From: Candidatus Electryonea clarkiae
GTDB lineage: Bacteria; Electryoneota; Electryoneia; Electryoneales; Electryoneaceae
Assembly: GCA_030765455.1 (NCBI GenBank)
Contig: JAVCCM010000156.1
Span: forward strand, 1-64,000
Direction of reading: 5' to 3'
DNA: 64,000 bases
Positions 303-23,639 of this stretch are shown here, piece after piece. Numbering within the stretch: the first letter of the stretch is position 1; the number at the start of each line of letters is the position of its first letter. Made by a program: the position numbers and the translations under genes. The notes under the pieces were generated by a model. It was not told the origin of the DNA, searched no databases, and saw only the letters and a list, made by a program, of their open reading frames with translations.

Positions 303-567
303 GATTTTTCAGAGTTTGTAAAAAAAAGCGTTAAGTGTTGCTCATTCATACATCATGCATTATATTTCCGAATAGTCAAGACAGGCTAACGGTGTTGAAA
401 TCTACTTGTCGAGGATTCAGCCTGTCAAATCCAGAACCCCGTACCTGGACGAGCACCAACCGGTTTTCAGCATCCCCACAAAGATTGATGAAACAGCTCT
501 ATGCTTTTTTTGCATAAGGCTTCGCTGAAGTATCAGTTTGAATTTGTGTTTCTTTTTGGGAGCTATC

Positions 568-3513
568 ATGAACAGAATCCTGTTTCTCGCCGCTTTTTTA
601 CTCGTTGTTATTCTTACTGGATGCACCAAAACAGACGAGGATAATCCTGTCACTCCGGAAGCAACTCCACCCGAAGCCCCAACCGGACTTATTGCCGATG
701 GGAGTAGTGACCGAAGTATTTCCCTCGGATGGAATGACAACTCCGACGATGAAGAATATTTCTACGTCGAACGTTCCCTCGGTTCAACCGGCGCATTCAT
801 GCAGATCGCAACTCTGGGCGCTAACGTCACCTCATTTTCTGATACCGAACTGGCTCCGGGAGTTACGTATGCTTACCGGGTTCGAACCGGGAACTCTACC
901 GGGTTTTCGGAATACAGCAATGAAGTGTCCGCACAGGCAACCGGTTTTGTTGAAAATCCGGAACTGCTTATCGCCGAGTACAATGAATTCACACCTACTC
1001 GAGATGTCACACTGCTGATTATTGCCTCTGATGCGGAATCGATGATGTTATCCAACTCGGATCGATTCCAAGGCGCAGAATGGGAACCTTTCAAACCGTT
1101 GAAATCCTGGCAACTTGCTACCGGCGCAGACCTCAAAACTGTTTACCTTAAAATAGCAAACGACTTTGGTGACACCTCCGAGGTGATTACTACCTCCATT
1201 ATGCCGGAAATGCCCTCAGTCGATGCTGTGATAAATAGTGGAGAGGAAAGCACAAGCACTATCCAGGTTCGTATGACACTTGTGGTTGAGGGTGGTATAA
1301 CCGGGATGAAGGTTTATAATGATATTCCAGATTCTGCCAGTGAACCATTTGATTGGTCAGACCTTGAGGAAGAGTTTAACTGGAATCTTATAACAGGTCC
1401 CGGCACAAAAACAGTCCGGGTAAAAGTGCGAAATGATTTCCTGGTTGAGGCGACAGCAACAGCGTCTATCGAACCTGAAATTCCTGAAGTCTCTTTTGAA
1501 ATAAATGGCGGCGTAAACGAAACTGCTTCCCGATATGTTACCCTTGACCTCTCTTCAACAGGTGGGGCGACGGAGATGAAGATCTCAAACAGCCCACTTG
1601 CGGGAAGCATGATTTACGGATCGCAAGTTGATCCCCGCCAGGGTAAATGGGATAAACATTGGAATGATTCGGGTCTTTCTCACAAAAATAATAAAATATT
1701 GAATGGTGGTATAAAAGGTGATTTGAGAAGTGGCGCGGACCTCCGTGTCCGTGATAAGGGCAAAAGTGATAAGAGCATGAGCAGCGCAAAGAACTTCTCA
1801 CCTGCTCAACCAATGGCGCGCACTGAGGCACGCCCCACCTCCTCTTCAAAACTTTACATAACTGGTTCAAATTCTGTCAACAATTCCAGTATTGAATTAG
1901 ATGAGAATGATGAATGGATTCCATATACTGAAACTGTTGATTGGGAATTGGATTGTGGCGATGAGGGCAAAACCGTCTATGTCCTCGTCCGCAATGATTT
2001 CCTGATCGAGACTTCCGTTGACGAGTCTATTGAACCACTGCCTCCAACTGATCCTTTCATCCAAATTCTCGACGGAGATCAGCAGAATTCCTACATCGTT
2101 GATCTGGCAATACATTGTGATTACGCTGATCTAATGATGATATCTCATCTTCCGGGTTTTGCCGGAGCTGAGTGGATTGAATATGAAGAAAACATAACCG
2201 GTTTTGATTTAGGTGGCGGCAGATTGGCAACAGGCGGCAGCTCTCAAAAATCACCTTATGAAGAAAAACCATCGCCATCCTCTGAAATTGATGAGATAGT
2301 ATCCGTATATGTCAAATTCATAAACAACTTTGAAATTGAGAGTGACGTGGCTTCCGATAATATAGAGATTGATGCTGCTCCTCGATCACTTGGCTTGAGC
2401 TATTCACGCAATGAGATCAATCCGGAGGGAAGCGGAGGGAATACAACCACACAACTCACTGCAACTGTTCTAACTAGCAATGAGAATCCGGTTGGAGATG
2501 GAAAAGAAGTGTATTTCCTGATGGGTATTTTTCCAGGCGGACAAGATGAAAATCCAAGAATTAATGAGTCCGATGGGACAGAACCTGGTAATTTTTATCA
2601 TTCACCATTTGATTCAGCACAGACAATTGACGGATCGGCAGTCGTAACCATTCATGCCGGTTCCGGTCTGGGATTGATTGGAATTAGAGTTTGGACATTT
2701 ATCGATGAAGAGACTCGCGGCACACCGGATGCGGACTCAATTGTTGTAATTATTAATAATTTGAGTGTTACAGGCGGACCTCCTCATCATGTCGATATTG
2801 ACATCAACGAGATCGCTGAAGATGGTGGTGGAGCAATATGGATATTAGAAGTGTCAGCCACTGTCAGAGACATTCAAAATCATCCCGTTTTGGACAGCAT
2901 TGCAGTTCAATTTGAAGTTGATCAGGATATTGCAGTTATCAGTGATGGATATACCGGTAACGAAAACATGGCGGGTATAACAGTACCGGGAGTAGCATTT
3001 TCTACCCTGGTCTATAACAGCTCAGTGACAAACGACAGTATTCAAATCCAAGCTGAAGTGCTTGCTGGTGATGGACACAACACGATAACCGGAATTTATA
3101 ATGATTTCAAACTTCCATTACAGGAAGGCGCCGGTCTTCTTTACTCAGATCCCTTGAACTGGAATTACAGAAACCAGCACCCAATTGCGGTTTTTGATAT
3201 GTCTGTTTTTGTTTATGACGGTCATGATCATTGTATAGACAAACAGCTTGTCCGTTTCTTGACCGACAGGGGATTGTATTATACGAGTGCAGCCGGTGGC
3301 GCAGTGAGAAACGAGGCTTTGACCGGACCACTGGATTATCCGGTCGGCATGGATGGGGATGAATGCGGCTGGGCGCAACGTTACCTGAGAATCACTTTCG
3401 ATGACGCTTTTCCCGATCCAAGAATTCTCGACTCCAGGGCAACAGCAAATGTAGAAATCATCGGTTGCGCAGACATATATATAGAACCGGTTACTATCAA
3501 TCTAATACACTGA
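568..3513 (+). CDS. Giant FN3/Ig-like surface lipoprotein, paralog 1
   Basis: A 981-residue secreted lipoprotein. I start it at 568 rather than an upstream ATG at 538 because GGGAG lies 5 nt before it and the protein then begins with a clean lipoprotein signal (lipobox LTGC, Cys19). Order: FN3 domain (about 28-120); repeated ~90-residue beta-rich modules carrying the phrases TEMKISN, W-x-PF/PY and VRNDF; an invasin-like Ig domain (about 590-700); then a C-terminal region with YDGHDHC and WAQRYLRITFDDAFPDP. The third module holds a long low-complexity insert (about 345-440) containing two GC-rich palindromes. It is the first of three tandem paralogs. No catalytic motif is visible, so an adhesive or structural surface role is inferred. 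Family architecture is clear; the function is unknown. Confidence 0.85.
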   Translation: MNRILFLAAFLLVVILTGCTKTDEDNPVTPEATPPEAPTGLIADGSSDRSISLGWNDNSDDEEYFYVERSLGSTGAFMQIATLGANVTSFSDTELAPGVTYAYRVRTGNSTGFSEYSNEVSAQATGFVENPELLIAEYNEFTPTRDVTLLIIASDAESMMLSNSDRFQGAEWEPFKPLKSWQLATGADLKTVYLKIANDFGDTSEVITTSIMPEMPSVDAVINSGEESTSTIQVRMTLVVEGGITGMKVYNDIPDSASEPFDWSDLEEEFNWNLITGPGTKTVRVKVRNDFLVEATATASIEPEIPEVSFEINGGVNETASRYVTLDLSSTGGATEMKISNSPLAGSMIYGSQVDPRQGKWDKHWNDSGLSHKNNKILNGGIKGDLRSGADLRVRDKGKSDKSMSSAKNFSPAQPMARTEARPTSSSKLYITGSNSVNNSSIELDENDEWIPYTETVDWELDCGDEGKTVYVLVRNDFLIETSVDESIEPLPPTDPFIQILDGDQQNSYIVDLAIHCDYADLMMISHLPGFAGAEWIEYEENITGFDLGGGRLATGGSSQKSPYEEKPSPSSEIDEIVSVYVKFINNFEIESDVASDNIEIDAAPRSLGLSYSRNEINPEGSGGNTTTQLTATVLTSNENPVGDGKEVYFLMGIFPGGQDENPRINESDGTEPGNFYHSPFDSAQTIDGSAVVTIHAGSGLGLIGIRVWTFIDEETRGTPDADSIVVIINNLSVTGGPPHHVDIDINEIAEDGGGAIWILEVSATVRDIQNHPVLDSIAVQFEVDQDIAVISDGYTGNENMAGITVPGVAFSTLVYNSSVTNDSIQIQAEVLAGDGHNTITGIYNDFKLPLQEGAGLLYSDPLNWNYRNQHPIAVFDMSVFVYDGHDHCIDKQLVRFLTDRGLYYTSAAGGAVRNEALTGPLDYPVGMDGDECGWAQRYLRITFDDAFPDPRILDSRATANVEIIGCADIYIEPVTINLIH

Positions 3514-3518
3514 TGAAA

Positions 3519-3756
3519 GCAATTAAGAATTATCAATTAAGAATTAAGAATTGAAAAGATAAACCATTTGATCGATGGGATCGTATCCTACAAAATTGCA
3601 TTTATGCACAGGATTAGCAGATTTTGTTTACTTAGCGCCTTTGCGCCTTTGCGTGAGAAAAAACATGCTTTTAGAAATCAAGAACACATAATAATAATTT
3701 CTTAATCTTTATTAAATGTTTTGATTCTTAATTCATAATTCTTAATTCTTAATTGC
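3519..3756. repeat. Intergenic element bounded by inverted AT repeats, copy 1
   Basis: The spacer after paralog 1 opens with GCAATTAAGAATT plus further AATTAAGAATT units and closes with the inverse (AATTCTTAATT...AATTGC), giving terminal inverted repeats of about 35 bp around a 170-bp core. The core contains a TTGCGCC TTTGCG motif and an 'acaggatta' stretch that recur in copy 2 (6507-6749). It ends just upstream of the ribosome-binding site of the next paralog, so it probably carries that gene's promoter. Confidence 0.7.
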
Positions 3757-3782
3757 AAAATACTATTTGCCAGGAGAAAGTT

Positions 3783-6503
3783 ATGATACGTCTGATCTTT
3801 TTGATTATGCTTATCGGTTGTATTTTGCTCGCCGGTTGTACGGAGGATGATAAAACTCCTGTTGAGGTCACTCCACAGGTTCCTGAAGCTCCGTCAGCCT
3901 TGACCGTTAATGCCTCTTCTGACCGTTCGGTCTCACTTTCCTGGACGGATAATGCCGACGATGAAAATTTTATGTTTATCGAGCGCGCGATTCATAATTC
4001 CGGATCATTCATACAAACCGCTAAACTTGGCGCAAATGTCGTCACATATATCGATACCAGCCTGACACCGGGTGTGACATACAGTTACCGTATCCGTGCT
4101 CGCAATTTGACGGGATTCTCGGAGTACAGCAATGAAGGCAGCGTTATGGTAAGAGGGCAGGTGGAAAATCCTGAGCTTAGTTTTGCTGACTATGAAGGCA
4201 GCACTCCGACTCGATTTGTCAATCTGTTGATAGCAACCTCCGATGCGAGTTCGATGCTCTTATCTAACCTGCCTGATTTTTCAGACGCCGAGTGGGAGGA
4301 ATTCCTACCGTTGAAACAGTGGGAACTGGCTACAGGCGATGGAATTAAAACTGTTTACCTCAAATTAGTTTACCAATTTGGAGATACTTCCGGAGTTATT
4401 AACGCAGTCATTGAGCCGGAAATACCGGGAGTGGAGGTGTTGATAAATGACGGCTCCGAAATTTCTGCAACCCGTTTTGTCCGACTAACGATTTCCGCTG
4501 AAGCCGGAGCAATTGAGATGCGTATTGATGATAATGAGTGGCAGCCGTTAACTGACCGGTTCAACCATGACCTCGGTTATGCATCAGACAATTCTCCAAT
4601 CGAAGTACAGGTTACGGTGCGAAATGATTTTTTGATAGAAGCCCTGGATGTTGCATCTATCAGACCGGAAACGTCAACAATTGAAGGTGTTATCAATAAT
4701 GGCGCCGAAAGTACCTCAACACGATTTGTAACACTCAACCTGTCTGCCGGGGGCGGTGTTACTGAAATGAAAATTTCGAATAATCCTCTCTGCGGAGTAT
4801 TATCATCTGATCCTCCTGATAATAAAAAACAAGTTATTACACAGAAATCCGGAAACCTGTCAAATTATCCATTAAAAGGAAAAAACAATGTCCCTTCCAG
4901 GCAGGCAAAAAGACAGTTAAATCAACCACAGAACGCAAAACCCATTCAGACTTCAAACGAACTTGATGAACCAGTCTGGCAGCCTTATGAAGAAAGTTTT
5001 GACTGGGAACTCACTACTGGAGGTTGGACAAAACTCGTCTATATCCTTGTTCGTAATGACTTTGAGCTTATGGCATATACCACAACCGCAATCGAACCGC
5101 TTATTCCCGCTAATCCGTCTGTTAGAATTATCTGGGGTGGGTACGAAGAGAATCAGGTTGTCACGCTTGATCTCCAATGTGACCATGCCGACAGAATGAA
5201 CATCTCGAACCGTTCGGATTTTGAAGGTGCTCAATGGCAGCCTTTCAGGGAAATTGTCACTGGTTGGGACCTGAGTGAGGGAGGGGATAATAACGCACAT
5301 GAAGCAACCGTATTTGCAATGTTCAGGAATGATTTTGGAGTATTCAGTGATGTGGTTTCTGATACTGTTGATGTCTGGGAACGACCTTTCAGGATAGAAG
5401 TTGAGTTAAATCGAGATAATATTGCTGTATCAGGATCAGGTGGTATTGAGACAGCAAGGTTTGCAGCTCGTGTATTCAATCAGGCTGGTGGTCCTGTGCA
5501 AAATGAAACCTTAGTTTATTTCCTTATGACCGATTATCCGCATGGTGAAAACCCTAACGAATATGATCCGTCATTTAACGAATCAGGTCGAGGGCCAACT
5601 CCATATGATCCATTACCTCATGATTCTTCTTCGACGAACAATGGTTCTGCTATGGTTTCAGTTAATTCTGGATCCGGACTGGGTTATATCGATATATCAG
5701 TCTGGGCTTACGTAAACCCGAATTTGCGTGGAACGCCGGATGTTGATTCCGTTCTGATTGCCTGTGAGAACATAATAGAAGTTGTGGCAGGACCTCCAAG
5801 TAGCATTGTAATTGAGGTGAATGAGGAAGCTCAGGACGGTGGCGGAGCGGTCTGGCTCTTAGATGTTGCAGCAACCTTAACCGACATAAGAGATAACCTG
5901 GTTTTGGACAATATCCCGGTACAGTTTACTGTTGAACCGGAATTTGCAACCATCGGTAATGCATACACCGGCAACGAAAACCAGGCAGGAGAAACAGAAC
6001 CCGGTGTGGCATATGCAACCCTTTCATATCACAGCCAGGTAACGAATGACTCCATATCTATCACGGCAACAGTTTTACGTGACCATAACGCACCGCTTGT
6101 CGAAACAATCGAGGATTATAATCTCCCTATGCAGCAGTGCAGCGCAGTTCTACACACCGATCCAGCTAACTGGAACTACCGGCACCAGGCTAACTTTGGT
6201 GTTTTTAATATTTCAGTCTATGTTTATGATGGACATAATCATCACATCAATGATCAATTTGTTAGATTTTTAACGGATCGTGGTTCCTATTACGCCTCTC
6301 CAGGAGGTGGGGCTCCACGAAATGATGCTTATACAGGAATGTATGAAGCGGAGCCAGGTTGGGCTCAGCGTTACCTCAGAATAAGCTTTGACGATGCATT
6401 TCCCGACCCGCGTCACCTGGAATCAACTGCTACAGCAAGAGTGGAAATTATTGGATACTGGGATAACGAGCCGGAACCGGTTATGATTTTCTTGCAACAC
6501 TGA
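3783..6503 (+). CDS. Giant FN3/Ig-like surface lipoprotein, paralog 2
   Basis: A 906-residue lipoprotein paralogous to its neighbours on both sides. The start at 3783 follows AGGAG by 6 nt and gives a lipobox LAGC with Cys19; an in-frame ATG at 3753 would only add ten non-signal residues. Same order as paralog 1: FN3 (about 30-125), repeated beta modules with VRNDF, a short low-complexity insert in the same loop (about 340-400, rich in K, N, Q and P), an invasin-like Ig domain, and a conserved end with YDGHNHH and WAQRYLRISFDDAFPDP. Probably anchored in the outer membrane. No enzyme motif is seen and the function is unknown. Confidence 0.85.
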   Translation: MIRLIFLIMLIGCILLAGCTEDDKTPVEVTPQVPEAPSALTVNASSDRSVSLSWTDNADDENFMFIERAIHNSGSFIQTAKLGANVVTYIDTSLTPGVTYSYRIRARNLTGFSEYSNEGSVMVRGQVENPELSFADYEGSTPTRFVNLLIATSDASSMLLSNLPDFSDAEWEEFLPLKQWELATGDGIKTVYLKLVYQFGDTSGVINAVIEPEIPGVEVLINDGSEISATRFVRLTISAEAGAIEMRIDDNEWQPLTDRFNHDLGYASDNSPIEVQVTVRNDFLIEALDVASIRPETSTIEGVINNGAESTSTRFVTLNLSAGGGVTEMKISNNPLCGVLSSDPPDNKKQVITQKSGNLSNYPLKGKNNVPSRQAKRQLNQPQNAKPIQTSNELDEPVWQPYEESFDWELTTGGWTKLVYILVRNDFELMAYTTTAIEPLIPANPSVRIIWGGYEENQVVTLDLQCDHADRMNISNRSDFEGAQWQPFREIVTGWDLSEGGDNNAHEATVFAMFRNDFGVFSDVVSDTVDVWERPFRIEVELNRDNIAVSGSGGIETARFAARVFNQAGGPVQNETLVYFLMTDYPHGENPNEYDPSFNESGRGPTPYDPLPHDSSSTNNGSAMVSVNSGSGLGYIDISVWAYVNPNLRGTPDVDSVLIACENIIEVVAGPPSSIVIEVNEEAQDGGGAVWLLDVAATLTDIRDNLVLDNIPVQFTVEPEFATIGNAYTGNENQAGETEPGVAYATLSYHSQVTNDSISITATVLRDHNAPLVETIEDYNLPMQQCSAVLHTDPANWNYRHQANFGVFNISVYVYDGHNHHINDQFVRFLTDRGSYYASPGGGAPRNDAYTGMYEAEPGWAQRYLRISFDDAFPDPRHLESTATARVEIIGYWDNEPEPVMIFLQH

Positions 6504-6506
6504 AAA

Positions 6507-6749
6507 GCAATTAAAAATTAAGAATTATGAATTAAGAATTGAAAAGAAAAAATCTAAAGCGAGAAGATCGTAACCTAAAAATATTATAGGGATGTACAGG
6601 ATTAACAGGATTTTCTTTCTTTGCGCCTTTGCGTCTTTGCGCGAGAAAATGAAATACTTTTATAAATCAAGGAGAATCAGAATTATAGCCTGAATCCTTA
6701 TGTATTAAATGTTTTAATTCCTAATTCCTAATTCATAATTCTTAATTGC
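6507..6749. repeat. Intergenic element bounded by inverted AT repeats, copy 2
   Basis: Starts GCAATTAAAAATTAAG 3 bp after the stop of paralog 2 and ends with ...CATAATTCTTAATTGC just before the ribosome-binding site of paralog 3. Its core resembles copy 1: 'gtacaggattaacagg' followed by TTTGCGCCTTTGCGTCTTTGCG. Its matching position and sequence suggest that gene and spacer were duplicated together. Confidence 0.7.
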
Positions 6750-6765
6750 TTTTTTAGGGGGTTTT

Positions 6766-9423
6766 ATGTATCGTTTTACAGTTTTATTTCTACTGATAGC
6801 TTTTTTCGTCTTTGCAGGGTGTGAGAAGGATGAGGATTCATCTTCGTCAACAACTTCGCCCTCAACGCTAGTACCTGATACTCCAACTGACCTGATGGTC
6901 AGCGAGGTGCTTAATCGCAGTATAACCTTGACCTGGCATGATAATGCGGATAACGAGGATTATTATCACCTCGAGCGTTCGATTGATTCCCACGACGGGT
7001 TTGTCGAAAAAGCAAGGATGGGTGCTAATTCTCAGACATTTACAGACACCGATCTCGCTCCCGGAATCTCATATTTCTATCGAGTACGAGCATCAAACAG
7101 TACCGGTTTCTCCGACTATTCAGACGAAACGCATGCCTGGGCTAAGGGGACGGTGGAAAATCCGGAACTACGTATAGCCGACGGCGCTGCAACCACCCCG
7201 ACACGTTATGTCAGCCTGGTTATAGTCGCCTCAAACGTTCCCTCAATGTTGATCTCCAATAATTATTATTTTATCGGAGCCGAGTGGGAACCGTTCAATC
7301 CCCTTAAATCATGGCTGCTGGAACCGGGTGACGGAATGAAAGCGGTCTATCTCAAATTAGCCAGCGGTGACGGCGACACTACCGATACTATTTTTGATTC
7401 AATTATGCCTGAAGAACCTGATGTACATGTACTGCTGAATGATGGAGCCAGGAGCACCAATTCAAGAGATATAAATGTGAAACTGGTGACGACTGGTTCT
7501 CCTTTACGAATGGCTGTTGGCAGCGTCGATAGCGATGGTATGAGACAACGCTGGCAGGAGTTTGAAGATGAGTTTAGCTGGGAGCTTACGCCGGGTCCGG
7601 GAACAAAACCTGTGTATGTGACAGTCCAGAATGATTTTATGTTAGAGGCTTCCACGACAGTATCAATCGAACCCGAACCTCCCCAATTGTCGATTTCAAT
7701 TAATGACGGAGCCCACGGAACCCACAGCAAATATGTCACATTGACTTTAGAGGCTTCGGAAGGTGTAACAGAAATGCAGATTTCAAATGAAGCTTTCGGT
7801 GAAGGACTGTATAGTAAAAAGAAAAAAGATTTTGGCTTGTTCAAATCCGTCAAAGGTAATTCCAGTGAACTGGATGAAACAGATGAATGGGTTCCATTCT
7901 GGGGGAGAACTGCCTGGGAGCTTCCAGTTGATGTAGGAACAAAAACGGTTCATGCCCGGATTCGTAATGAGTTTCTGTTAGAAACAGAGGCTGAGGATGC
8001 TATTGAACCACTTAGATTAGGACTTCCAAGCATTGAAATTGCAGAACAATATGAAGGAAGGGAATTGTTTGGTACGTTAAGGCTTCATTGCACAAATGCG
8101 GAAAGTATGATGGTCTGGAGTGCAGTGGGTAGTTCCGGGACAAGAGTAGCTTTTATAGAACATCTGAATAATTGGCAGCTCTATTGGTCTGATCGGTGGG
8201 GCCCGTGGGATCCTCCGTGGCCACAACCTCGTCCTACATTATTTACAGTATATGCGAGATTCTGGAACAGCTTCTATGGATCAACAATTGTTGTTAGTGA
8301 TCAAGTTCCGGCAGCCGGAATCTTCTTTCATACCGGAAAACCAGCATCAATCATTTTAACGTCCAATAAGAATGAACTTCAAGCAGGTGGACATCACGCT
8401 ACAATTACCGCAACGTTGCGGGATGCAAATGATGATTTAGTAGAAAACGAAACCCAAGTTTTCTTTCTGATAGATGGTTTTCCTGAGGAAGACAGACCGT
8501 TATTAAATGAATCTGATGGTTTAGAGCCCGGCAATCCCTATGAAGGTCCATTTGACTCAACCCAGACCAATAATGGCTCCTGCCGGGTATCTATCACTTC
8601 CGGAACGTCAACCGGATCGGTTCGATTGGTGGCTTGGACACATGTGTATCCGGAGTTAGTTGGCACGCCGGATGCAGATTCAATCATTACCTATTACAAC
8701 AGCCTGATGATAGTCGGCGGGATGCCTACTACCATGTCCATTGATGTCGATGAACAAGGGACTGACGGCGGTGGGGATATATGGCTGCTGGACGTTACAG
8801 CGTTGCTGCATGACGAAAACGGCAACCCGGCAAGGGACAGTATCGCGGTACAGTTCACCCTTGATCCGCCTATTGCCGAGATAGATTTCGGCTGGACGGA
8901 AAATGGGATAGCATCAACTACCCTGGCTTATCATTCATATGTCACAAACGACAGCGTTACCATAGAAGCAATGGCATATTCTGACGGCGATGAACCGTTA
9001 ACTGCTGTATATCATGACTTTAATCTTCCCATGCAGGAGGGCGCCGCCCTGCTGTACTGTGATCCGACCAACTGGAATTTTGCCACGCAACCACCAGTCG
9101 CCTATTTCGATATTTCCGTTTTTGTTTATGATGGTCATGATCATTGCATAAATGATCAGCTTGTGAGATTCTTAACTTCTCGAGGTCTTATTTGGTGGTC
9201 CGGAGGAGGTCAAATCCGTAATGAAGCTATGACCGGTCCGCGTGATTATCCCGTCGGATTAGACGGTGACGGTCCTGGATGGGCACACAGGTATTTGAGG
9301 ATAACTTTCAATGACGCCTTCCCTGATGACAGGGAGCATGAATCGACAGCCATTGCAAGTGTAGATATTATCGGGTACCAGGACATCAATGTTGAACCAG
9401 TTACTGTGCGTTTACAACAGTAA
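6766..9423 (+). CDS. Giant FN3/Ig-like surface lipoprotein, paralog 3
   Basis: An 885-residue lipoprotein (lipobox FAGC, Cys19) preceded by AGGGGG. It keeps the FN3 domain (about 35-130), the repeated beta modules, the invasin-like Ig domain and the C-terminal YDGHDHC and WAHRYLRITFNDAFPDD segments of the other two copies. The variable insert is shortest here, about 30 residues around SKKKKDF. A Trp/Pro-rich stretch near residues 480-490 (about 8200-8230) is specific to this copy. Probably exposed on the cell surface; function unknown. Confidence 0.85.
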   Translation: MYRFTVLFLLIAFFVFAGCEKDEDSSSSTTSPSTLVPDTPTDLMVSEVLNRSITLTWHDNADNEDYYHLERSIDSHDGFVEKARMGANSQTFTDTDLAPGISYFYRVRASNSTGFSDYSDETHAWAKGTVENPELRIADGAATTPTRYVSLVIVASNVPSMLISNNYYFIGAEWEPFNPLKSWLLEPGDGMKAVYLKLASGDGDTTDTIFDSIMPEEPDVHVLLNDGARSTNSRDINVKLVTTGSPLRMAVGSVDSDGMRQRWQEFEDEFSWELTPGPGTKPVYVTVQNDFMLEASTTVSIEPEPPQLSISINDGAHGTHSKYVTLTLEASEGVTEMQISNEAFGEGLYSKKKKDFGLFKSVKGNSSELDETDEWVPFWGRTAWELPVDVGTKTVHARIRNEFLLETEAEDAIEPLRLGLPSIEIAEQYEGRELFGTLRLHCTNAESMMVWSAVGSSGTRVAFIEHLNNWQLYWSDRWGPWDPPWPQPRPTLFTVYARFWNSFYGSTIVVSDQVPAAGIFFHTGKPASIILTSNKNELQAGGHHATITATLRDANDDLVENETQVFFLIDGFPEEDRPLLNESDGLEPGNPYEGPFDSTQTNNGSCRVSITSGTSTGSVRLVAWTHVYPELVGTPDADSIITYYNSLMIVGGMPTTMSIDVDEQGTDGGGDIWLLDVTALLHDENGNPARDSIAVQFTLDPPIAEIDFGWTENGIASTTLAYHSYVTNDSVTIEAMAYSDGDEPLTAVYHDFNLPMQEGAALLYCDPTNWNFATQPPVAYFDISVFVYDGHDHCINDQLVRFLTSRGLIWWSGGGQIRNEAMTGPRDYPVGLDGDGPGWAHRYLRITFNDAFPDDREHESTAIASVDIIGYQDINVEPVTVRLQQ

Positions 9424-17824: not shown

Positions 17825-18095
17825 TTCTCGAAAGTATATTTATAAACATCTTTTCGATACCCTACCTTTACGACAAGAACACTCTTTTCCTGATCATCTA
17901 TAGCATAAACAATCCTGTACCAACCTGACGTACTCGACATCGAGCCTGCTGAGACAGCTTCTCACATCCAGGCGGACGTGGATCATCAACCAGGGATTGA
18001 ATTCGACTCACAACCATCTGTCGATCCTTCTTCCGGCTTATCCGCTCGATCTCTTTCACAGCCGAGGGTTTTACCAGGAGATTATATCTTCCCAT
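17815..18095 (-). pseudogene. Frameshifted RelE/ParE-family toxin
   Basis: The frame from the ATG at 18095 encodes a RelE/ParE-like start (YNLLVKPSAVKEIERI, then CEKLSQQA and RVRQ) but breaks to give a stop at 17895-17898 after 65 codons. In the neighbouring frame the family continues perfectly: GWYRIVYAIDDQEKSVLVVKVGYRKDVYKY in pieces, to a TAA at 17815. One missing G in the CAG-GTTGG stretch near 17934 accounts for the break. Repaired, the protein would be about 93 residues, the normal length. It overlaps the antitoxin gene by 14 nt. A sequencing or assembly error is the main alternative to real inactivation. Confidence 0.82.
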
Positions 18096-18315
18096 CGCTC
18101 TTGAGCTGATTCAGGACGTCTTCAAAGGCAAGGTTGGGTTCCGCCGATCTTTCCTCGAAAGCAGCGATATCTTCTAAATCCTCGAGTAAGCTCTGACGAA
18201 CTGCATCATTCACTAAATCAGATATGCTTCGATCCGTCTCAGCGGCTTTGATACGAATCGCACGATGAAGCTGAGGATCAAAATAGACGGTTGCTCTTTT
18301 TACTTTAGTAGCCAT
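18082..18315 (-). CDS. Ribbon-helix-helix antitoxin
   Basis: A 77-residue partner of the adjacent toxin. The first 45 residues (KRATVYFDPQLHRAIRIKA, then SISDLVNDAVRQSL) form a typical ribbon-helix-helix DNA-binding domain. The acidic C terminus (EDLEDIAAFEE...) would wrap the toxin. The start at 18315 is preferred over 18354 because the domain begins at MATK. The gene comes first and overlaps the toxin by 14 nt, the classic arrangement that autoregulates its own promoter. The antitoxin is intact although the toxin is broken. Confidence 0.85.
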   Translation of the reverse strand: MATKVKRATVYFDPQLHRAIRIKAAETDRSISDLVNDAVRQSLLEDLEDIAAFEERSAEPNLAFEDVLNQLKSDGKI

Positions 18316-18689
18316 GAATGTAAATATAACCTCATCCAGACCTAATTCACCCAATCTGCTGAGAGATCATTCGCTCCATTAACTTATTGGTTATATGAAT
18401 AAAACTGGATTTTGATAGATGCTCAGTGGTATATTTAGTGGATGCTGTTATAACTACTCCTTCTAACTGGCGACACCGCATACAGTATTGCTCGCATTAT
18501 ATGAGCGCGGTTGAGGTTAGATATAATCTTAGAATAAGGAGATCATCATGAAACTTACCTTCATCATACCCTGACTCCCTCAATTACAGGAGAGAAATAC
18601 CGTGCATTGAATTAGTACGGGCTTTTGATATTGAGGGAGAATACCTGATTTTTATCATTATAACCAAAAATTTAATCTTGGAGTTGAAG
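18316..18689. other. Intergenic region with a strong start for an 8-codon ORF and a perfect inverted repeat
   Basis: At 18548 an ATG with AAGGAG 6 nt upstream opens an eight-codon frame (MKLTFIIP, stop at 18572). A perfect 10-bp inverted repeat, CTCCCTCAAT (18575-18584) and ATTGAGGGAG (18630-18639), follows. One base fewer in the CCC at 18569-18571 would fuse this start in frame to the 44-residue gene at 18690. It could be a leader peptide with an attenuator-like structure or the relic of a longer gene; I cannot decide from sequence alone. Confidence 0.35.
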
Positions 18690-18824
18690 ATGTCTGACAA
18701 AAACACAGGCGGCGGAAGAACTCCCAATGATCAGCGGGCCGACGTTAAGAATCCGAACAATTCGGATTACGTTGAGGATCAGATCAACAGGGATAGTCAA
18801 GCTGCAGAAAAGGAAGACAAGTAA
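18690..18824 (+). CDS. Small hydrophilic 44-residue protein
   Basis: An ATG at 18690 with GGAG 6 nt upstream opens a 44-codon frame ending at TAA 18822-18824. The protein is very polar, lacks cysteine and hydrophobic segments, and contains KNPNNSDYVEDQINRDSQ. From memory this resembles short hydrophilic Gram-negative proteins with an NPNN-x-x-Y motif, of unknown function. It is followed by a perfect hairpin terminator at 18844, so it has its own transcript end, and sits directly before the glycosyltransferase/radical SAM operon. A precursor-peptide role is possible but unproven. Probably real: good Shine-Dalgarno, compact gene, terminator. Confidence 0.65.
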   Translation: MSDKNTGGGRTPNDQRADVKNPNNSDYVEDQINRDSQAAEKEDK

Positions 18825-18894: not shown

Positions 18895-21231
18895 ATGAAA
18901 ATTCTTCAGATCATACATGGTTATCCAATGCTTTATAATGCTGGATCGGAAGTCTATACTCAGACACTTTGCCATGGTCTTGCGTCATCAAATGAAGTAT
19001 TCGTGTTTACTCGCGAGGAAGACCCTTTCAAAAAAGACGCAAACCTGATCGTAACGAGTGACGGTACGGATAACCGAATCAAACTTTACTTAATTAACAA
19101 TCCAAGGAACCGTGACCGTTACAGAGTTCCTGAAATTGATAAGGTTTTCATCCGTGTGCTTGATGAAGTGAAACCTGATATCATTCATATTGGTCATATG
19201 AATCATCTGTCAACATCTTTGGTATATGAAGCTGCCATCCGTGGGTATCCGATTATATTTACTCTTCACGATTTCTGGTTGATGTGTCCGCGTGGGCAGT
19301 TCATGCAGATGTTCCCCCAAGATAAGACTGATCTGTGGAAAGCCTGCAAAGGACAGGATGACCGGAAATGTGCTGAACGATGTTATGCCCGATATTTTTC
19401 TGGCTCAACAATTGATTGCGAAGAGGATATCGAATACTGGTCAAGTTGGGTTGCAAGACGGATGAAGCACATTCATGAGATGATCGAGCACATTGATTTG
19501 TTCATAGCGCCATCAAAATATCTTCTGAATCGACACATATCTGAATTTGGAATTCCTTCTTCTAAACTGGTTTATCTCGATTACGGATTTGATCATAACC
19601 GGCTGATGAGTCGGGAACGAATGAATAGTGAACCTTTCACATTCGGATACATCGGAACACATATTCCTGCCAAAGGCATACAAGTGCTTCTTGATGCCTT
19701 CGGAAAACTTGCAGGTGAAACAAGATTACGAATTTGGGGTAAACCTCGTGATCAGGCAACGGACGGACTAAAGAGGCTGGCGGAGAGACTGCCTGCCGCA
19801 AATTATGATCAGATTAAATGGCATTCAGAGTATCAGAACCAGAATATCGTTCGTGATGTTTTCAATCATGTTGACGCAATTGTAGTTCCTTCAATCTGGA
19901 CGGAAAATTCTCCACTTGTTATTCATGAAGCTCAGCAGGCGCGTATTCCGGTTATTACATCTGATATCGGAGGGATGGCAGAGTATGTCAGACATGAAGC
20001 TAATGGCCTCCTGTTCAGGTATCGTAACAGTTTATCACTTTCAGAGCAGATGCAACGTTTCATTGATGATCCGGCACTTGCGAAAAGATTAGGTGAAAGA
20101 GGATACCTTTATTCAGAAACTGGAAATGTCCCTCATATACAAGAACATGTTGAATTAATCAATCATCACTATCAACAGGTGATCACTAATCGTAAAACAT
20201 CAAAAACTGAGCATCGTTCGGGACCATGGAGGATCACATTTGATACTAATCCTGATACTTGTAATCTGCATTGTATCATGTGTGAACAGCATTCAACATA
20301 TCGGAAACACAATTTTAATCAAATAAACAGACACCGAATCATGCCATTTGATATGATTGAACGTGTGGTAAAAGAAACTGTGCCAAACGGTTTACGGGAA
20401 ATTATTCCTTCTACAATGGGTGAACCTTTATTATACCCTGACATAGAAAGGATCATTGAATTATGTCGTGAGTATAACCTGAAATTGAACCTCACAACGA
20501 ACGGGACATTCCCGAAACACAGCGCTGCAACCTGGGCTGAAGAAATTATTCCTATTAGCTCAGATGTGAAAATATCAATGAATGGGGCTTCACGGAAAAC
20601 ACAGGAAGCCATCATGGAGGGATCAAATCTGGAAAATACTCTCAACAATATTCAAACATTTTGTAGTATTCGTGATGAGCTCAAAATTAATGGCACTAAC
20701 GGTTGCAGAGTCACACTCCAACTCACTTTTCTTGAGAGAAACATGCATGAAATTACAGATCTCGTGAAAATGGCTATTGATATGGGAGTTGATCGTGTTA
20801 AAGGTCATCACGTCTGGACTCATTACCCTGAACTTGAACAACAATCGCTCAGAAGAAGTCCCGAAGTTATTAAGAAGTGGAATGATGTAGTAAGGGAGAG
20901 TGCTAGGATTGTCAAATCAAAGTTCCTACCCAATGGAAAACGTCTGATTCTTGATAATTTTAATACTTTGGAAAAATCAGCAACAGATGATATTCATCAA
21001 GGAGGACGTTGTCCATTTCTCGGACACGAAGCCTGGATCAATACAGAAGGGAGATTTGATCCATGTTGCGCACCAGATGACTTGCGCCGTGGATTGGGAA
21101 GTTTCGGAAATATATGCAATGAAAGTTTCATGGATATCTGGCGAAGTGAAGCATATAAGAATCTTATCAGAACTTATCCGACCAGATCATTGTGTATTTC
21201 ATGCAATTTGCGTAAACCGGCGGAGGAATAA
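18895..21231 (+). CDS. Fusion: GT4-like glycosyltransferase - radical SAM/SPASM protein
   Basis: A 778-residue two-domain protein. I start at 18895 (AGGGAG upstream) rather than 18862, so that the GT fold begins MKILQIIHGY. Residues 1-430: a GT-B glycosyltransferase of the family 4 type, with GYPMLYNAGSEVYT at the acceptor side and the donor-binding PSIWTENSPLVIHEA. Residues 440-778: radical SAM domain with the cluster motif C456-x3-C460-x2-C463, then TNGTFP, and a SPASM-like end with C706, C724/C725, C767 and C770 for an auxiliary cluster. SPASM proteins often modify peptides, so a glycosylating and radical-modifying enzyme is plausible. Substrate unknown. It overlaps the next gene by one base (TAATG), so the two are coupled. 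Confidence 0.88.
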   Translation: MKILQIIHGYPMLYNAGSEVYTQTLCHGLASSNEVFVFTREEDPFKKDANLIVTSDGTDNRIKLYLINNPRNRDRYRVPEIDKVFIRVLDEVKPDIIHIGHMNHLSTSLVYEAAIRGYPIIFTLHDFWLMCPRGQFMQMFPQDKTDLWKACKGQDDRKCAERCYARYFSGSTIDCEEDIEYWSSWVARRMKHIHEMIEHIDLFIAPSKYLLNRHISEFGIPSSKLVYLDYGFDHNRLMSRERMNSEPFTFGYIGTHIPAKGIQVLLDAFGKLAGETRLRIWGKPRDQATDGLKRLAERLPAANYDQIKWHSEYQNQNIVRDVFNHVDAIVVPSIWTENSPLVIHEAQQARIPVITSDIGGMAEYVRHEANGLLFRYRNSLSLSEQMQRFIDDPALAKRLGERGYLYSETGNVPHIQEHVELINHHYQQVITNRKTSKTEHRSGPWRITFDTNPDTCNLHCIMCEQHSTYRKHNFNQINRHRIMPFDMIERVVKETVPNGLREIIPSTMGEPLLYPDIERIIELCREYNLKLNLTTNGTFPKHSAATWAEEIIPISSDVKISMNGASRKTQEAIMEGSNLENTLNNIQTFCSIRDELKINGTNGCRVTLQLTFLERNMHEITDLVKMAIDMGVDRVKGHHVWTHYPELEQQSLRRSPEVIKKWNDVVRESARIVKSKFLPNGKRLILDNFNTLEKSATDDIHQGGRCPFLGHEAWINTEGRFDPCCAPDDLRRGLGSFGNICNESFMDIWRSEAYKNLIRTYPTRSLCISCNLRKPAEE

Positions 21232-22889
21232 TGATTGACTGGAGAAATACGTGTATAGCAGAAGATTATTCTTATCATCTGTACCAGGGAAAAGAATTTT
21301 ACAAGTACAGATTTGATCATGTCCTGAAATATCATCCACCCGGATTTGCTGCTGTCAGTCGTGACGGGATGGCATGGCATATTGATGCTACAGGTAAGGC
21401 AGCATACAGTAGCCGGTATCTAAGGACGTTCGGCTTCTATGATGAACGCGCGGCTGTAGCGGATCAACAAGGCTGGACACATATCATCACGGATGGAAAC
21501 ACCCTTTATACTCAAAGATACTGCTGGTGTGGGAATTTTCAGGAGGGACTATGCACAGTAAGAGATGAGGAGGGCAACTATTTTCATATTGATCATACAG
21601 GAAAAGAAAAATACTCAAAAAGATGGAGATATACAGGGGATTTTCGAGATGGAATAGCAGTTGTTCAGAGTATCGAAGGGCTGTCATCTCATATAGTTAA
21701 AGAGGGAAGCTTGCTGCATGGTCGCTGGTATCAGGACTTGGATGTCTATCATAAAGGAATTGCAAAAGCAAAAGACATCGATGGCTGGGTGCATATTGAT
21801 AAATCTGGCAAACCGCTATATCAAAGAAGATTCTATATGATTGAACACTTCTATAATGGTCAAGCACGTGTTGAGAATTTTAATGGAAGCCTTGAGATAG
21901 TTGCTGAAGATGGAAATACCATAAAATCACTACGTCCTGCCACTAAAAGTGCGTTTTCTGAACTTTCCTGGGATATGGTTGGCTTCTGGAAGACCGAGAC
22001 CATTGCGGCAGCAGTAAAATCGTGTATTGCAGAAGCATTGCCAGGAACAGATACGACCGTGTCGAAGTTGTGCAGAATGCCCATACACAACACTCAAAAA
22101 CTTTTGAGAGCATTAGGTGAACTTGGGATTGTGGACTGTATGAGCACAGGTGAATGGCAATTGACAGAGAAAGGGCAGTTCCTAAAAAGGGATCACCAGT
22201 TGACACTTGCTGAAGCTGCCTTGGAATATGCAGGAGCATTGCAGACGCCATGGAAAGATCTTCATCATGTTTTGATAAACAACGATAATTCTTCAGGGGA
22301 AATCTTTAAAGAAATAGCTAATGACTCGACAAGAAAATATACACATCATAGAATGCTCCGCAGTTATGCTGAACATGACTACAGAAAATTAATCCCGCTA
22401 TTACCGATCAAGCCCGGAGACAGTGTTCTTGACGCAGGTGGCGGTGACGGTGTTTTTGCTGAGATGATCCTTGGGTATTACAGAGATGTTAATGTTCATG
22501 TTCATGTTCTTGATCTTCCAGGAATTATAGAGATGATGCCTAAAAATATTACAAGTACGGGATGTGATCTTTTCCAGAAATGGCCGGCTCAGGGAGATGT
22601 TGTAATACTTGCTCGAGTACTCCATGATTGGAATGATGAAAAAGCTTTGCAAATCCTGAGGAACGCTCATCATGCTCTCAATTTTGAAGGAAGACTTATC
22701 CTCCTTGAAATGTTACTGCATGAAGAAAATTATTATGGCAGCCTATGCAATCTGCACCTCTACGCTGTAACAGGTGGCAAAGAACGCTCAGAGGGACAGT
22801 ATAAAGAGTTACTTAGACAAGCAGGATTTTCGTCAATTATTATAATGGAGCAAAATGTCCCCGCATTAATTATTGGAGACAAGATATGA
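21231..22889 (+). CDS. Fusion: WG-repeat domain - O-methyltransferase
   Basis: A 552-residue protein. Residues 30-230 hold five to six WG-type repeats (beta units such as GFAAVSRDGMAWHID, GIAKAKDIDGWVHID), usually a binding or scaffolding fold. Residues 240-330 resemble the winged-helix dimerisation domain of family-2 O-methyltransferases. Residues 370-552 form a SAM methyltransferase with VLDAGGGDG (399-407) and the catalytic-type His465 in LHDWNDEKA. Starts at the stop of the GT/radical SAM gene with GGAGG upstream. The shared operon suggests that both enzymes act on the same molecule, perhaps held by the WG domain. Substrate unknown. Confidence 0.85.
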   Translation: MIDWRNTCIAEDYSYHLYQGKEFYKYRFDHVLKYHPPGFAAVSRDGMAWHIDATGKAAYSSRYLRTFGFYDERAAVADQQGWTHIITDGNTLYTQRYCWCGNFQEGLCTVRDEEGNYFHIDHTGKEKYSKRWRYTGDFRDGIAVVQSIEGLSSHIVKEGSLLHGRWYQDLDVYHKGIAKAKDIDGWVHIDKSGKPLYQRRFYMIEHFYNGQARVENFNGSLEIVAEDGNTIKSLRPATKSAFSELSWDMVGFWKTETIAAAVKSCIAEALPGTDTTVSKLCRMPIHNTQKLLRALGELGIVDCMSTGEWQLTEKGQFLKRDHQLTLAEAALEYAGALQTPWKDLHHVLINNDNSSGEIFKEIANDSTRKYTHHRMLRSYAEHDYRKLIPLLPIKPGDSVLDAGGGDGVFAEMILGYYRDVNVHVHVLDLPGIIEMMPKNITSTGCDLFQKWPAQGDVVILARVLHDWNDEKALQILRNAHHALNFEGRLILLEMLLHEENYYGSLCNLHLYAVTGGKERSEGQYKELLRQAGFSSIIIMEQNVPALIIGDKI

Positions 22890-23126: not shown

Positions 23127-23288
23127 AGTAGTTCACTTTCGTTGAAAGTGAATCAAACTTGGATTGAGTAGTAGATGTTACCTGTTTGAAACACGACTCA
23201 ATAATTTGCAGAAAAAGAGAATTTACTTACTAAAAAGATGATTTGCCTTCAGAAAAAGACGATTCACTTTCGCCGAAAGTGAACTACT
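23127..23288. repeat. 162-bp MITE-like element with 28-bp terminal inverted repeats
   Basis: The ends AGTAGTTCACTTTCGTTGAA... (23127-23154) and its inverse (23261-23288) match at 26 of 28 positions. Each end is itself a palindrome around TTCACTTTCG..CGAAAGTGAA. The core has no coding potential and carries an internal repeat of CAGAAAAAGA. The rest of 22890-23381 holds nothing I recognise. A non-autonomous mobile element is the simplest reading; no target duplication was established. Confidence 0.7.
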
Positions 23289-23381
23289 CTTCAGATTAAG
23301 TCCATTTTACTCAGTGTTATACGCTATTGCTTTGGGGGAATCTGGGGACAACATATTGTTTAAGGTGAGCTTGTCTTATCA

Positions 23382-23594
23382 TCAGATTGCAATTGTTTCA
23401 CGAATTGCATCATCAGGTAAACCGCGGACAGCATCCTCGCGTCTGTCTTTGAGTATCAGGGAAATAGCTGCTTTAAGGCTCTTTTTACATTCCTCAATAT
23501 TTCTTCCCTGTCCATTAGCGCCCGGCATCTCGGGACGATATGCAATATACCACTTGCCGTCTTGTTCGATAATTGCAGTGAATTCGTTTTGCAT
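23382..23594 (-). CDS. HicB-like protein, apparently without HicA
   Basis: A 70-residue protein with the HicB_lk-type partial RNase-H fold: EFTAIIEQDGKWYIAYRPEMPGANGQG, then ECKKSLKAAISLIL (quoted in parts). I choose the ATG at 23594; ATGs at 23600 and 23612 are alternatives and none has a strong ribosome-binding site. HicB proteins are usually antitoxins paired with HicA, but no HicA-like frame is seen on either side, so this is an orphan or a stand-alone regulator. The C terminus lacks a clear DNA-binding domain. Confidence 0.75.
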   Translation of the reverse strand: MQNEFTAIIEQDGKWYIAYRPEMPGANGQGRNIEECKKSLKAAISLILKDRREDAVRGLPDDAIRETIAI

Positions 23595-23639
23595 TATCAT
23601 TACAGGAAACATAATTTTAACGATCTCAGGTCAAATGAA

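Follow-up and report, generated by a model that had tools for sequence, protein, structure and literature searches.

Introduction

Within the 64,000-nucleotide stretch of Candidatus Electryonea clarkiae DNA analysed here (the window), a small open reading frame (ORF) is followed by two coupled genes, one joining a glycosyltransferase to a radical SAM enzyme and the other joining WG repeats to an O-methyltransferase (OMT). The question raised by this locus is whether the four modules are accidental neighbours or parts of one system and, in the latter case, what they may produce. Below, GT denotes glycosyltransferase, rSAM denotes radical SAM/SPASM, and "=" between modules indicates that they are fused. 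The features are as follows:

18690..18821, +, small Asn-rich ORF of 44 aa (MSDKNTGGGRTPNDQRADVKNPNNSDYVEDQINRDSQAAEKEDK), first gene of the operon, candidate acceptor or carrier peptide (HMM family member, E 3.7e-10)
18895..21231, +, gene 1, GT4-radical SAM-SPASM fusion, 778 aa (Pfam domains, AlphaFold, Foldseek)
18895..20184, +, GT4 glycosyltransferase domain of gene 1, aa 1-430, with invariant E337-x7-E345 motif
20257..20667, +, radical SAM core of gene 1, aa 455-591, C456-x3-C460-x2-C463
21010..21207, +, SPASM auxiliary Fe-S domain of gene 1, aa 706-771, with C706/C724/C725/C767/C770 invariant
21231..22889, +, gene 2, WG-repeat-OMT fusion, 552 aa (Pfam, AlphaFold)
21231..21938, +, WG domain of gene 2, aa 1-236, made up of about six beta repeats of 35 aa in which conserved His recurs at regular spacing
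21975..22832, +, OMT of gene 2, Methyltransf_2 type with N-terminal dimerisation-like region, aa 249-534
22623..22625, +, codon of the catalytic-type His465 of gene 2, in an LHDW motif

Domain architecture and conserved residues

A reading made earlier from the sequence alone had described a coupled pair with two fusions and four domains, and this was borne out by the ORFs, Pfam and structure models. The genes share one base at their junction (TAATG), and each is single-copy in its own genome. In gene 1, Pfam placed Glyco_transf_4 at 17-236 and Glycos_transf_1 at 240-404 (5.6e-26), Radical_SAM at 455-591 (1.5e-15) and SPASM at 706-771 (3.8e-10), and the protein carries both the CxxxCxxC motif and the C-terminal cysteines of radical SAM/SPASM enzymes. 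In gene 2, WG repeats were found at 7.5e-7 and Methyltransf_2 at 358-534 (2.4e-28), with a weak match to an N-terminal dimerisation domain at 249-317; the SAM motif and catalytic His of Methyltransf_2 O-methyltransferases are both present. The AlphaFold models of the two proteins were confident (mean pLDDT 87.4 for gene 1 and 94.4 for gene 2). Foldseek matched gene 1 to GT4 enzymes of the MshA/GlgM/BshA type and to SuiB, and the OMT of gene 2 to the small-molecule O-methyltransferases ASMT, PhzM, DtpM and DnrK. Solved structures matching the rSAM profile were mostly peptide or protein modifiers (anSME, YydG, SuiB), and BtrN and cytosylglucuronate decarboxylase were also among them.

The cysteines C456, C460, C463, C706, C724, C725, C767 and C770 showed no variation across 41 relatives of gene 1, E337 and E345 were likewise invariant, and H465 was invariant in 32 relatives of the OMT. 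The residues singled out beforehand are therefore functional signatures of working-type enzymes and not chance motifs. Four further invariant cysteines (C131, C151, C159 and C163) lie within the GT4 domain, at aa 131-163, and a similar pattern was seen in related GT4 proteins of other loci; they are a possible metal site, located in the least confident part of the model.

The WG domain is 39-56% identical across phyla, and its approximately six repeats carry invariant or near-invariant His, Tyr and Gly at regular spacing, a pattern that fits specific binding better than loose scaffolding. A sequence search of the PDB found no structure related to this domain.

Distribution, linkage and co-inheritance

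A collection of 84,980 species genomes was scanned with rSAM+WG as query, the best 80 of 136 relatives were kept as loci, and modules were placed in these by tblastn. GT, rSAM and WG were all present in 74 of the 80, and most of the remainder reach contig ends. The order GT>rSAM>WG on one strand was found in 71 loci, the GT=rSAM fusion in 44, the WG=OMT fusion in 34 and both fusions in 20; an OMT was nearby in 49. Since WG was part of the first query, the scan was repeated with rSAM alone. Among Myxococcota, 21 of 284 genomes were positive, with WG adjacent in all 21 and GT upstream wherever the contig extends far enough; among Bacteroidota, 2 of 396 were positive. This linkage rules out accidental neighbours. 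The scores were all-or-none (mostly E<1e-110, one at 1e-87 and otherwise nothing at the 1e-40 cut), indicating that the rSAM family is discrete. Moreover, pairwise distances of the modules were correlated (Mantel r 0.78-0.86, p 0.001). Judged by conserved linkage, recurrent fusions and correlated divergence, the four modules can be taken with near certainty as one functional unit, and, because they travel together, usually in one operon, the cassette genes almost certainly build one common product.

The cassette spans at least 19 bacterial and archaeal phyla, including Asgard, and occurs also on Arsenophonus plasmids, on one IMG/VR contig and in Wolbachia phage WO. Several of the 19 phylum-level groups in the rSAM tree were interleaved, with 28 label changes against a minimum of 18, which would be as expected of transfer, although a tree of MAGs cannot prove it. 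On one Arsenophonus plasmid (L206, 7852-10187) the GT and rSAM halves do not share a reading frame and the stretch lacks an annotated gene, which gives the impression of a split or broken gene.

The nearest relative (G002, another genus of the same family) was the only one of 193 relative genomes with an orthologue, 55% identical over the full GT-rSAM. Here a 259-aa GT-like ORF precedes the gene 1 orthologue, and a 235-aa WG-only protein follows it, ending in a stop with no OMT. This genome thus keeps the GT-rSAM fusion and its linkage to WG but lacks the WG-OMT fusion. Isolation of the fusions to a single genome, with the genes unlinked elsewhere, had been named as a result that would count against the proposal; it is rejected by this orthologue together with the genome-collection scan. 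What the two genes encode is the core of a discrete cassette, probably spread by horizontal transfer, that comprises GT4, radical SAM/SPASM, WG and often OMT.

Variable cap and neighbouring genes

GT-rSAM-WG is the near-constant core, and the OMT is replaceable by kinase-like domains. The C-terminal fusion partner of WG is usually an OMT; in L122 and L143 it is a protein-kinase/APH-like domain (Pkinase 6e-17), and in L144, L171 and L181 a P-loop kinase-like domain. In L122 (10545-11462) and L143 (7473-8516), the cassette is followed by a protein in which a class II aldolase is joined to a WG-like N-terminus, and proteins of this type were found in some Myxococcota and Pseudomonadota loci.

Several neighbours recur among the 80 kept loci. 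A His-phosphatase or Tyr-phosphatase is near 56 of the 80 and is in some cases fused to a nucleotidyltransferase; for the His-phosphatase protein, the assignment of its C-terminal half as polymerase-beta-like comes from motif alone, Pfam being blank there. A search of the window's own genome for the PF13350 phosphatase found none. An NAD-epimerase is near 26 of the 80, with an EPI=GT=rSAM triple fusion in L137, L143 and L147, and a carbamoyltransferase is present in 12; class II aldolase, a second rSAM-SPASM, PhyH and AsnB each occur in subsets of loci, and PhyH with SHMT-like genes on Arsenophonus plasmids. Eleven loci (Bacteroidota and one Lachnospiraceae genome) have an RtcR-related sigma-54 regulator beside the operon. 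Eight of these eleven regulators are at least 37% identical to RtcR seeds, and one, scanned against PADLOC, was identified as CARF-AAA (5e-62). Five loci have viperin as a neighbour (3e-84 in Bacteroidota). A sigma-54 site was found in 1 of 10 upstream intergenic regions, convincingly in L179 only. In archaea, a Zc3h12a-like NYN RNase (PF11977) precedes the cassette in L117 (5201-5680), L171 (4804-5646) and L181 (1239-1952).

In the window itself, a RelE/RHH-like, toxin-antitoxin-like pair (17898-18354, -) lies on one side of the operon and a HicB-like small gene (23382-23612, -) on the other, both recognised by eye; such genes on both sides suggest an insertion hot spot. Between the operon and the HicB-like gene are the near-identical palindromes TTCACTTTCGTTGAAAGTGAA and TTCACTTTCGCCGAAAGTGAA (23130-23290). 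Further away, 538-9423 encodes a tandem set of three paralogous secreted proteins (about 890-990 aa) whose N-terminal parts are fibronectin-like.

The small peptide gene

The ORF at 18690, to which the sequence-only reading had drawn attention, is single-copy in the genome, and small ORFs like it immediately precede GT in unrelated phyla. When 21,419 small ORFs, taken from both strands at every locus, were searched with a peptide HMM, 18 matches were obtained, of which 17 lie on the operon strand, immediately before GT or before the epimerase that precedes it, and one lies beside RtcR. An Asn/Arg-rich peptide is the first gene in about a quarter of the loci, the window included, and the ORF does belong to a family recurring at the same place; a second, SMP-like family occupies this position in L154, L184 and L190. 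In AT-rich loci, strongly hydrophilic upstream small ORFs numbered 13 on the operon strand versus 0 on the opposite strand. The motif DNR[AS]NQLNP was present in 8 of 21 cassette-bearing Myxococcota genomes versus 3 of 263 others (Fisher p 3e-8). In 7 genomes it lies immediately ahead of the operon, and several family members carry it as a repeat. A wider motif, ND[QE]R..NPNN, was found in 3 of 242 sampled genomes, one of them being that of the window.

No peptide was found beside most loci, including those of Wolbachia, Arsenophonus, Chlamydiae and Cyanobacteria; phage WO and Arsenophonus were considered as possible carriers and none was found there. Related peptides occur without the cassette, and neither a protease nor a leader/core boundary was seen. 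Tied to the cassette in some loci and absent in others, the peptide is a real but not constant partner. A short peptide gene linked to the modifying enzymes, which in a RiPP cluster would encode the precursor, heads the operon here and in roughly one locus in four and is absent from others.

Relationship to known systems

The earlier statement that no described system has this four-domain pairing does not hold. In Wolbachia phage WO, WD0613 is a GT with radical SAM and SPASM, and WD0614 consists of KWG repeats fused to an O-methyltransferase type 2 (PMC4701759, PMC9203015), exactly the pair seen here. Homologues were noted in 2015 in Desulfovibrio, Haliangium, Capnocytophaga and Saprospira (PMC4701759). 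As members of the Undecim Cluster the two phage genes bear the names UC3 and UC4, and a part in glycan synthesis and in methylation has been suggested for them (PMC9203015); the functions of the cluster were called unknown in a 2025 paper (PMC12801941). The closest part is WD0612-WD0614 (UC2-UC4), of which UC3 and UC4 share the architecture of the window pair. By tblastn, the window modules match phage WO in the same order (GT 52%, rSAM 51%, WG 47% and OMT 24%), GT-rSAM being homologous to WD0613 and the adjacent WG-OMT to WD0614. The complete cluster (contiguous WD0611-WD0621) is absent, since module seeds found only GT, rSAM, WG and OMT in window positions 10001-32000. Phage WO has an epimerase, UDP-glucose dehydrogenase, PhyH, threonine aldolases and transporters but lacks a peptide gene, whereas the window has only two genes behind a peptide ORF. 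The window pair is thus a free-standing variant, headed by a peptide gene, of a core that has been described but not characterised. In the open literature, no paper naming WG together with radical SAM and GT was found. New here are the breadth of distribution, the GT-rSAM-WG core, the swappable OMT, the recurrent phosphatases, the divergent RtcR and viperin neighbours in Bacteroidota and the peptide as first gene.

Two other systems are partly similar. SuiB, of the streptide-type RiPPs, was the best PDB match of the rSAM half in both sequence and fold (5v1q), and the operon is likewise headed by a short peptide gene. However, identity in the fold match is 17%, the window rSAM is fused to a GT, the window has no KGx-type precursor, and the peptide is not universal among cassette loci. 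Similarly, an O-antigen cluster fusion (L105, 6837-9350, 837 aa) has the same GT4-rSAM-SPASM order in a single protein and is about 31% identical in rSAM, but it has no WG or OMT partner and sits in an ABC-transporter glycan cluster with several GTs.

Possible function of the cassette

Comparison of the loci showed the modules to be inherited, spread and fused as a unit, with catalytic signatures intact, and the cassette to be associated with a peptide and a phosphatase. The explanation we favour, though at slightly less than an even chance, is that the two genes supply the core enzymes of a mobile biosynthetic cassette in which one WG-presented acceptor, the peptide where present, would be glycosylated, radical-modified and capped. 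The WG domain would present this single acceptor to the enzymes, and the GT4 domain, with a nucleotide sugar as donor, would glycosylate it. The radical SAM/SPASM domain would then alter the acceptor or the sugar by epimerisation, decarboxylation or cross-linking, and the OMT, or the kinase-like domain in other loci, would add the cap. Phosphate could later be removed by the phosphatase encoded near most loci, though not in the window. Where the operon begins with the gene for the small Asn/Arg-rich peptide, as in the window and roughly a quarter of loci, that peptide would be the acceptor or carrier, and the system would then be RiPP-like. For the acceptor, the peptide is the most likely candidate where present, and a small molecule may be nearly as likely. 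The proposal that one substrate receives sugar, radical and methyl modifications remains the most economical reading, in keeping with four modules that act as one unit, with the reservation that the WG-OMT fusion is not obligatory, WG standing alone in the nearest relative. Linkage, the rSAM-only result, the Mantel correlations, the invariant residues, the variable cap, the phosphatase, the peptide HMM and motif, and the peptide modifiers among the rSAM matches count in favour of the acceptor-modifying cassette. Counted against it are the loci without peptide, which are the majority, the cassette-free peptides, the lack of a protease or leader boundary, and an OMT fold of the small-molecule kind.

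A small-molecule pathway, yielding a sugar-containing, radical-tailored and O-methylated or phosphorylated metabolite (aminoglycoside- or peptidyl-nucleoside-like) with the peptide unrelated or accessory, is a less likely but tenable alternative. It would account for the NAD-epimerase (26 loci), carbamoyltransferase (12), class II aldolase, PhyH, AsnB and second rSAM, for the epimerase, UDP-glucose dehydrogenase, threonine aldolases and transporters of phage WO, and for PhyH and SHMT-like genes on Arsenophonus plasmids, and it agrees with an OMT nearest ASMT, PhzM and DtpM and with BtrN and cytosylglucuronate decarboxylase among the rSAM matches. However, the peptide gene is statistically tied to the cassette, and minimal loci such as the window have no recognisable scaffold-building enzyme.

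Much less probable is a stress or defence role, either RNA end repair or modification or an RNA-damage-induced metabolite. The divergent RtcR (CARF-AAA) and viperin neighbours in Bacteroidota, the NYN RNase upstream in archaea and the phosphatase and nucleotidyltransferase fusions point in this direction, but RtcR is restricted to one clade, the sigma-54 site was found in just one of the ten intergenic regions, and OMT and GT4 are not RNA-enzyme families. Slightly less probable again is that the cassette acts on a surface glycan such as exopolysaccharide or LPS, the role put forward for the Undecim Cluster (PMC9203015). GT4 with epimerase and the separate fusion L105 within its ABC-transporter glycan cluster are consistent with this; the cassette is, however, found in Asgard and other archaea and in Wolbachia, and no flippase, polymerase or ABC-2 exporter is among the neighbour families recurring beside the core.

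In its widest form, the acceptor-modifying cassette would define a new RiPP-like class extending from Asgard archaea to Wolbachia phages, in which a WG-bound, small Asn/Arg-rich peptide whose core repeats a DNRANQLNP-type motif would undergo GT4-SPASM sugar and radical steps and receive a cap from the WG-fused OMT or kinase, with the Undecim Cluster as a derived form whose substrate would be either a peptide supplied in trans or an equivalent small molecule. Taken as a whole, this is rather unlikely.

Significance

Arthropod Wolbachia conserve the Undecim Cluster and express it at a high level (PMC12801941). Based on the results of this study, its core genes are now placed in a cassette shared with the culturable, free-living Halomonas, Ectothiorhodospira, Myxococcus, Sorangium and Algibacter, which opens the cassette to deletion and expression and to identification of the product by mass spectrometry. 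Direct tests are offered by the peptide gene, by the exchangeable cap and by the association with RtcR.
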